From Stereum hirsutum FP-91666 SS1 (Eukaryota; Basidiomycota; Agaricomycetes; Russulales; Stereaceae), in contig NW_006763146.1 of assembly GCF_000264905.1 (NCBI RefSeq), positions 1,295,308-1,359,307 of the forward strand: a DNA stretch of 64,000 nucleotides, given 5' to 3'. The notes beneath the pieces are model-generated. The model saw nothing but the letters and a program-made list of their open reading frames with translations. It did not search any database and was not told the origin of the DNA. Shown piece by piece: positions 48,913 through 51,178 of the stretch (position 1 is the first letter of the stretch; each line of letters begins with the position of its first letter). Position numbers and translations under genes: made by a program.

Positions 48913-49030
48913 ATGAGCGACAGAAAGCGGCCCTTTGAGGGCAATGGGGACTCATCTTCTGCGAAGAAGGCACGAAGGTCTGTTTCACTCTTCTTGTAGC
49001 CATCATCTCCGCTGACGTTGTACCTCACAG

Positions 49031-49040
49031 TGACATCGCC
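49031..49040 (+). other. 10-nt micro-exon of PRP3
   Basis: The ten bases TGACATCGCC lie between an acceptor (CTCACAG) and a donor (GTGAGTAC). They restore frame between KKAR plus two bases and TPPNGLG, giving S-D-I-A. Without it the first two exons do not join in frame. Confidence 0.7.
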
Positions 49041-49231
49041 GTGAGTACCCTTCCCTTCATCCGCTCTCAAGGTGAATATCCTTGCTACCACTCTTTCTGA
49101 CGTCGCCTCTATAACCTCTTTCCTTCCTTCCAGACTCCCCCTAATGGTCTTGGTGGTCCGTCAGGTGTAAGTGGACTTATTGACTTTGTGGTCGATCCTA
49201 TGCTCTAACAGGTCGTAATGTATAGGTTTCC

Positions 49232-50324
49232 AAGGAGGCGTCAGCCCCAGCCACGGAAAAACTTTAAGAATGGAATGCAGCACGGAAGGCATGGAGACGT
49301 ACCTTTTTCGTCAACATTAGAGGCTTGGCCTCGATGCTGTTCTTATCGCTAGGGGCAACAATTGGAATTGGATGCTGGATATATATGGTGATAGGCGAGC
49401 TCTCCGTTCGAATATTTAACTGCCCGATATCCAAGTTGGAAACGTCATCGTAGTGCTTGTTGGGTAACAAAGCGACGTCCCACCATTCTGCATCAGGTGG
49501 CGCCTCGCGCTGAAGTGAGATGTTCCTCTATTAGGACAAGCCAGCGAAAGAAACAAGAACTGAACAAACGTACTCGTATATTCTTCTCCAAAGTATCGAA
49601 CTCCGTGTCCAAGCCAGCCTTCCTCGCGCTTTCCGCGATCCTCTGCTTCAACGCCTCTAGCTGCGCGTCCTGTCTCATCTGGTTCGCGACAGCCACATAC
49701 TTACCCTTCGGATTGAATTTCATACTCCTCCCCACCCTCTCCCTCGGTGCACCCTCAAAGCCCGTATCTGTGGCCGCAGCTGCAGCAGCGTAGGGATTCT
49801 CTTTGGGAGTAGACGGGAGTGTGGGTGTCGGTGCGGGAGACGGCGAGGGTGCGTTTCGTGTGTTCGCACGGATGGAGGCGAATTTCGGCTGCATGGGCTT
49901 ATAACGGTCCTTTTTGGACTGTGGCGCAGGGACGCTAGTGTCGAGCAAAAGAGGATGTGCAGTCATCTTGAGCCCAGCACCTTGCTGCGACGGTTCCACG
50001 GGCTTGTTTTTCTTCCCGGTTTGCGGCATGGACTAGAGCGCAAGTGAGTAAGACCAAGTGAGTAGGGTAGATGGTATTACGCACCATGTACGGGTTGTCC
50101 TTGATCGCGAGCTTGCGCTGAGCCTCAGTGACCTTATTCCTCGCTTCGGCGATCTTCCTGGCAAGGTCATCGGAGAGGCCTGCAGCTGGCGCCGGGGCGC
50201 GCGATGGTGGAGCGGCGACAGAAGTGGCAGTGGGTTGTTGAGCAAAGATGGCCGGTCCTCCAGGTTTCTTCATGGCCGCAATCTTAGCAGCGACCTCTGC
50301 GCGCTTCTGGGCGATGAGTTGTCT
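49232..50324 (-). other. inverted block carrying the middle of PRP3
   Basis: This segment of about 1,093 bases holds three exons, read on the minus strand: 50324-50085, 50032-49574 and 49527-49303. They code for the PRP3 middle region, including KIAEARNKVTEAQRKLAIKD, MKFNPKGKYVAVANQMRQDA, EWWDVALLPNKHYDDVSNLD and IRTESSPITIYIQHPIPIVA. Both internal introns keep correct splice sites on that strand. At its 49232 end lies the first part of an intron (donor at 49302) whose acceptor (GCTCTAG) sits outside the block at 50325-50331 on the plus strand. The block is thus flipped relative to both neighbours. Confidence 0.92.
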
Positions 50325-51178
50325 GCTCTAGGAACGGAAGAAGATGCGCAAGAGGCGTCGTCAGGCTGAACTGCAAGACAAACGCGATCGCATCCGGATG
50401 GGTCTCATACCTCCGGACCCCCCGAAAGTTCGCCTGGCAAACTTAATGAAAGTGCTCACCTCGGATGCTGTGCAGGATCCTACGCGGGTAGAGGCTCGTG
50501 TTCGACGCGAGGTTGCAATGCGCAAACACGGTCACGAGAAAATGAATGCGGAGAGGAAGTTGACGGACGATCAGAGGAGGGAGAAGGTGGAAACGAAGAA
50601 AGTAGAGGAAGAGAAGAAGGGTATCTATGGTGCTGTTTTCAAGTATGTTGCTGAACCTTCCATTAGGAAAGCGCGACAGCGACTGATTTTTACGAACTCT
50701 TAGGGTGAAGACGCTCTCCGACCCCGCCCACCGTTTCAAGGTTCGCAAGAATGCCGAGCAGATGAACCTCACAGGCGTGGTAATCTTCCACCCAACTTTC
50801 TCTATGGTGTACGTTGAGGGAGCTGCCAAGTTCGTGCGCAACTACACGCGACTCCTGACGCATCGTATCGCATGGACGGAGGCCGCTCGAGCTCGAGGTA
50901 CTGAGGACGTTGTTCTGGACGGCGACAATGTAGAAGCGTCCGCCGCAGGCCCCTCCGCTGTGGAAGACACGAAGAAGACGGATGACCCGGAGGTGTCGTT
51001 GGTAGATAACCGGTGTGACATGGTATGGGAGGGGCAGTTGAGGGACAGGGCGTTCACGAACTTTAGGCCGAAGACGTGTCCTACGGATGCATCGGCCAGG
51101 GAGGTTCTCGGGACGAAGCTGGCGGGATATTGGGACATGGCGAAGAACTTTAAGCCAGAGGACGAGTTCTCGATCTGA

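Follow-up and report, generated by a model that had tools for sequence, protein, structure and literature searches.

Organization of the PRP3 locus

Analysis of a window of 64,000 nucleotides from Stereum hirsutum FP-91666 SS1 (the whole stretch of DNA analysed, to which all positions refer unless a contig is named) revealed a PRP3 gene whose exons are divided between the two strands. Read directly, the assembled DNA has exons 4-6 on the minus strand, between exons 1-3 and exons 7-8 on the plus strand (Table 1), so that in the assembled record the exons do not stand in one order and on one strand, as those of a functional gene should. The assembly searched comprises 46.0 Mb in 38 contigs, and the contig carrying PRP3 (C16) is 1,454,402 bp long. 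Profile searches of the 38 contigs split the Pfam PRP3 domain (PF08572) into three pieces, all located here: profile positions 11-71 and 69-142 on the minus strand and 142-220 on the plus strand, with E values from 1.2e-9 to 4.9e-34, far beyond chance. The Prp3_C domain (PF06544) lies downstream of these pieces on the plus strand, and both domains exceed their curated cut-offs. The original prediction that PRP3 is broken by an internal inversion, with its ends on the plus strand and its middle on the minus strand, was thus borne out by the PF08572 pieces together with the exon reading.

Table 1. Features of the S. hirsutum PRP3 locus in the order and orientation of the assembled record.
Feature	Positions	Strand	Remarks
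PRP3 exon 1	48913..48977	+	ATG at 48913
PRP3 exon 2	49031..49040	+	10 nt
PRP3 exon 3	49134..49166	+	ends GGT, then donor gtaagt
Intron 3	49167..49225	+	complete (gtaagt ... ctaac ... tatag); acceptor now opens into the inverted block
Inverted block	49226..50327	-	1,102 bp; exons 4-6, introns 4-5 and most of intron 6
Intron 6 minus its last four bases	49226..49302	-	inverted; branch-point-like ctgac
PRP3 exon 6	49303..49509	-	within inverted block; ends AAAAAG, then donor gtacgt
PRP3 exon 5	49574..50032	-	within inverted block; PRP3 Pfam match
PRP3 exon 4	50085..50327	-	within inverted block
Palindrome CTAG, right junction	50328..50331		AG acceptor for exon 7 (plus) and exon 4 (minus)
PRP3 exon 7	50332..50642	+	
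Public 257-residue Pre-mRNA-splicing factor 3 (P0121)	50344..51178	+	starts at internal ATG 50344
PRP3 exon 8	50704..51178	+	Prp3_C domain, stop codon

Boundaries of the inverted block

The edges of the block were placed by means of splice signals rather than by comparison with uninverted DNA of the species. When the block is turned back, the length of the gene stays at 2,266 bp, introns 3 (gtaagt...ctaac...tatag) and 6 (gtacgt...ctgac...cctag) become canonical and the frame is open; the opposite-strand segment restores the gene and the pieces do not overlap, as in a balanced inversion. The edges share an inverted microhomology of 3 nt (TAG at 49223-49225, CTA at 50328-50330), which blurs the exact break positions, and flips of 49225-50328, 49224-50329 and 49223-50330 are equivalent. 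About 5% of joins made at random would show a microhomology of at least 3 nt. There is little room for the right edge to move, since only four bases lie between the facing exons 4 (minus strand) and 7 (plus strand). The junctions are reciprocal and no loss or gain was seen, a result that is based on splice signals and would allow small losses within introns. The junctions 49225/49226 and 50327/50328 correspond to C16 1344532/1344533 and 1345634/1345635. Junctions had been predicted at 49231/49232 and 50324/50325; these are 6 and 3 nt off, and a flip made there yields a different sequence.

No N occurs in the window. Inverted repeats were not found at the edges in the 261-base stretches around both, the longest common inverted word being 7 nt and lying away from them, and none of the 25 longest of 130 repeat pairs joins both edges. 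A repeat-mediated or programmed inversion was rejected since inverted repeats are absent at the edges. PRP3 allows 23,657 inversions with an inverted microhomology of 3 nt or longer and a length of 300 bp or more; all exons are spared in 891 of these (3.8%), and both edges fall at 3' splice sites in 13. This coincidence of edges and splice sites is notable but partly circular, since splice signals had helped to position the edges.

Content and conservation of the restored gene

Once flipped, PRP3 consists of eight exons and seven GT-AG introns of 52-93 nt and encodes a Prp3 of 600 residues with no internal stop; the expectation that the remaining reading frames and splice sites are intact holds for this model. 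A branch-point-like site (YTRAY) is present in six of the seven introns, intron 4 being the one that lacks it. The 600-residue model replaced a 608-residue model in which exon 4 started in the left flank, and is preferred because branch-point-like sites precede the acceptors of introns 3 and 5; in addition, a 6-residue insertion before EWW disappears.

Alignment with 120 relatives revealed 204 columns with at least 97% conservation and 278 with at least 90%. The flipped Prp3 deviates in one of the former, which is also the median for all 121 sequences, and in seven of the latter. Judged by this alignment, the inverted exons show no sign of decay. The absence of internal stops, the intact splice sites and the single deviating column of the 204 are consistent with the very recent event that had been proposed. 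Decay of the allele had been considered from Q-to-R replacements at residues 341 and 347 by the right junction and was rejected, since R is found there in 4 and 2 of the 120 relatives, respectively.

Each of the ten best protein matches covers 100% of the flipped 608-residue reading, which indicates, at the protein level, that relatives carry the uninverted order. The closest among the best 120 of 710 matches to this reading was from Bondarzewia mesenterica (76% over 100%). The B. mesenterica model (P0001, 839 aa) is extended at its C terminus by more than 200 residues, and perhaps represents two neighbouring genes fused by annotation. When the middle part alone was used as query, the frames P0245 (90% over 55%) and P0248 (95% over 50%) were found to continue beyond the exon 5 donor; because they read through this donor, both are probably genomic sequence, introns included, of close relatives, apparently within Stereum.

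Copy number and the public protein

PRP3 and Prp3_C each gave one locus over the cut-off in the 38 contigs (46 Mb), and the DNA of the locus matched once. Neither profile nor DNA match revealed a second PRP3 in these contigs, and the protein matches listed held no full-length S. hirsutum Prp3; the other copy that the original prediction had allowed for was seen in neither. A second Prp3_C gene was likewise rejected, as only one locus passes the cut-off; at C1:3428406-3428579 on the minus strand Prp3_C matched weakly, with 26.5 bits, short of the 27.6 required.

The C-terminal part of the gene product is 100% identical to P0121, a protein of 257 residues deposited as Pre-mRNA-splicing factor 3 of Stereum hirsutum FP-91666 SS1, which is the only S. 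hirsutum Prp3 among the protein matches listed. Searches with the different parts yielded no full-length or middle-part S. hirsutum Prp3 among the best 120 of 710, 293 and 191 protein matches within the length ranges searched. Since this C-terminal part is the only S. hirsutum entry listed, the annotation evidently followed the record. At C16:50056-62987 the contig reads N for 12,932 bases, which is either a gap in the assembly or sequence that was withheld. No match to 5.8S rRNA was obtained in the 38 contigs with 39 of 1603 first-look candidates scored.

Strand orientation at control loci

Matches to three control families (P450, Sugar_tr and Cpn60) numbered 162 and fell into 106 clusters. 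In all 36 clusters with at least two matches the matches lay on one strand; the 70 single-match clusters are uninformative on strand flips. The control has low power for rare errors, 92 of 412 P450, 9 of 183 Sugar_tr and 32 of 32 Cpn60 candidates having been scored.

Predicted products of the inverted allele

Intron 3 still has a donor, a branch-point-like site and an acceptor of its own, so that exon 3 should be spliced into antisense in the plus-strand message, with a stop predicted after 49 residues. If intron 3 is retained, the reading frame likewise closes early. If the whole block is skipped as an intron of 1,165 nt, exon 3 joins exon 7 in frame and the join is open, giving 297 residues. 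The donors of introns 3 and 6 are kept, as is the AG before exons 4 and 7, through the palindrome CTAG, and on the minus strand a CTGAC starts 37 nt before exon 4. No YTRAY was found within 100 nt upstream of the exon 7 acceptor, which is a weak test as intron 4 also lacks this motif.

Origin of the inverted order

In the record, the single PRP3 gene carries a balanced microinversion that covers exons 4-6, and PRP3 as written would be unable to make Prp3. The U4/U6-U5 tri-snRNP needs Prp3, and PRP3 itself contains seven introns; the living strain is therefore expected to have the uninverted PRP3 order as well, and the inverted order is hence, most probably, not how the haploid genome is really arranged. 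We infer an assembly or clone artefact, an explanation to which we give about an even chance and which we consider slightly more likely than a rare balanced inversion carried by part of the culture. In that case a misplaced piece, or else a clone or molecule that was itself rearranged, would have entered the consensus when the genome was assembled or finished.

Several observations argue for an artefact. The assembly holds a single PRP3/Prp3_C locus and a single DNA match, and the flipped gene is intact and conserved, as expected if the organism truly has the uninverted order. Matches to Nop, PRP4-motif and PRP1_N, families that include tri-snRNP partners, are present in the assembly. Yeast Prp3 is called essential in the available part of PMC4520091, where a haploid without chromosomal PRP3 was sustained by a plasmid.

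The nature of the culture also bears on the question. In the available part of PMC3686207, FP-91666 is tabled among single-spore isolates (identity with SS1 is not stated in that part), all of its 3,051 ITS reads fall into one 97% cluster, and clamp connections are absent from all Basidiomycota of the single-spore set; the sequenced strain is named SS1 in the accessible text of PMC10344970. The single-spore, clampless origin makes an ordinary dikaryon less likely and thereby favours an artefact or a mosaic culture. The original prediction had offered a second haplotype, another copy or a wrong assembly, and of these the last now leads slightly; the second haplotype is disfavoured in the form of an ordinary dikaryon by the origin described in that portion of PMC3686207, and the 38 contigs hold no other copy.

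An artefact has to be reconciled, however, with features that resemble a real reciprocal two-break event, namely the absence of N and of edge repeats, the conserved length and the 3 nt of inverted microhomology; by our reasoning a misplaced contig would rarely mimic such an event to the base. Moreover, strand flips are not frequent in this record (none at the 36 control loci, a small sample). If the inverted order is an artefact, a white-rot reference record misstates an essential spliceosome gene, gene-content studies score Prp3 as partial, and the PRP3 microinversion is no biological feature at all.

The same features suit a real inversion of very recent date, carried by some nuclei: two breaks at the short TAG/CTA matches would have been rejoined with the middle reversed, and intact nuclei would supply Prp3 through the common cytoplasm. 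The junctions are reciprocal with 3-nt inverted microhomology, the edges have no repeats or gaps that would make an assembler flip the piece, and the inverted exons are undecayed. In the portion of PMC5031618 available, nuclei of one S. hirsutum strain are described as replaced by those of another, and strongly skewed nuclear ratios are described for multinucleate heterokaryotic fungi in general. The authors of PMC3686207, in the part available, do not entirely rule out differing nuclei for their strains. Against this reading stand the single-spore, clampless origin and the one ITS cluster of FP-91666 given in the same part of that paper. Furthermore, for the consensus to be inverted, nuclei with this recessive lethal would need to be more numerous than intact ones, and the intact copy is absent from the assembly. 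We regard such a sheltered inversion as possible but rather unlikely; if real, it would be a clear example of a supposedly haploid mycelium that harbours a recessive lethal rearrangement.

An intact second PRP3 in sequence outside the 38 contigs, such as small scaffolds or unassembled reads, is improbable. The 38 contigs may be less than the whole deposited assembly, which presumably comprises about 159 scaffolds, and 12.9 kb of C16 is N; on the other side, the protein matches described above, within their ranks and length ranges, held no full-length or middle-part S. hirsutum Prp3.

Still less probable is a fixed inversion in which the block is skipped and the short Prp3 of 297 residues suffices. 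Exons 3 and 7 are in phase and their join is open, and in the available part of PMC4520091 a human C-terminal fragment (484-683) bound U4/U6 RNA comparably to the full-length protein. The short form, however, loses 303 residues, among them a conserved stretch of the PRP3 domain, its 1,165-nt intron is very long against the 52-93 nt usual here and has no branch-point-like site near the acceptor, and the public model begins at 50344 instead.

Two-strand trans-splicing of PRP3 is unlikely, and we hold it to be the least probable reading: the inversion would be real and fixed, both strands would be transcribed and exons 1-3, 4-6 and 7-8 joined in trans with CTAG, a palindrome, providing the acceptor on either strand, and while the whole exons, spared in so few comparable inversions, the surviving splice signals and the CTGAC before exon 4 favour it, the branch-point-like site before exon 7 is missing within 100 nt and the edge coincidence is partly circular. 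If functional, PRP3 would be a two-strand essential gene.

Comparison with known systems

Trans-splicing brings together the exons of Drosophila mod(mdg4), which are spread over both strands. As in mod(mdg4), the PRP3 exons of one protein lie on opposite strands and their splice sites are kept; unlike mod(mdg4), PRP3 is known here from DNA alone and has no branch-point-like site within 100 nt before exon 7. The conserved parts of the S. hirsutum protein align in order, after the flip, with Prp3/PRPF3 of the U4/U6-U5 tri-snRNP (PDB 3jcr chain K, 3jcm chain K), whereas the record does not encode the protein in one readable order.

Many of the microinversions between Drosophila melanogaster and D. 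pseudoobscura are smaller than 1 kb and lie in or near genes, and all 143 left the exons of their host genes untouched, according to the accessible part of PMC1779558. The PRP3 block resembles these as a small inversion at a gene and differs from those described in that part in turning three exons of an essential gene. No earlier report of an inversion in S. hirsutum PRP3 was found in the titles and abstract openings of the literature searched.

Neighbouring reading frames

A minus-strand frame at 48347-49006 matches Ribosomal_L16 (PF00252, E 2.8e-12) and stands in head-to-head orientation to PRP3; in its longest version the frame overlaps PRP3 exon 1 on the opposite strand. Shortly downstream of PRP3, a plus-strand frame at 51379-51819 matches SURF4 (PF02077, E 2e-12).
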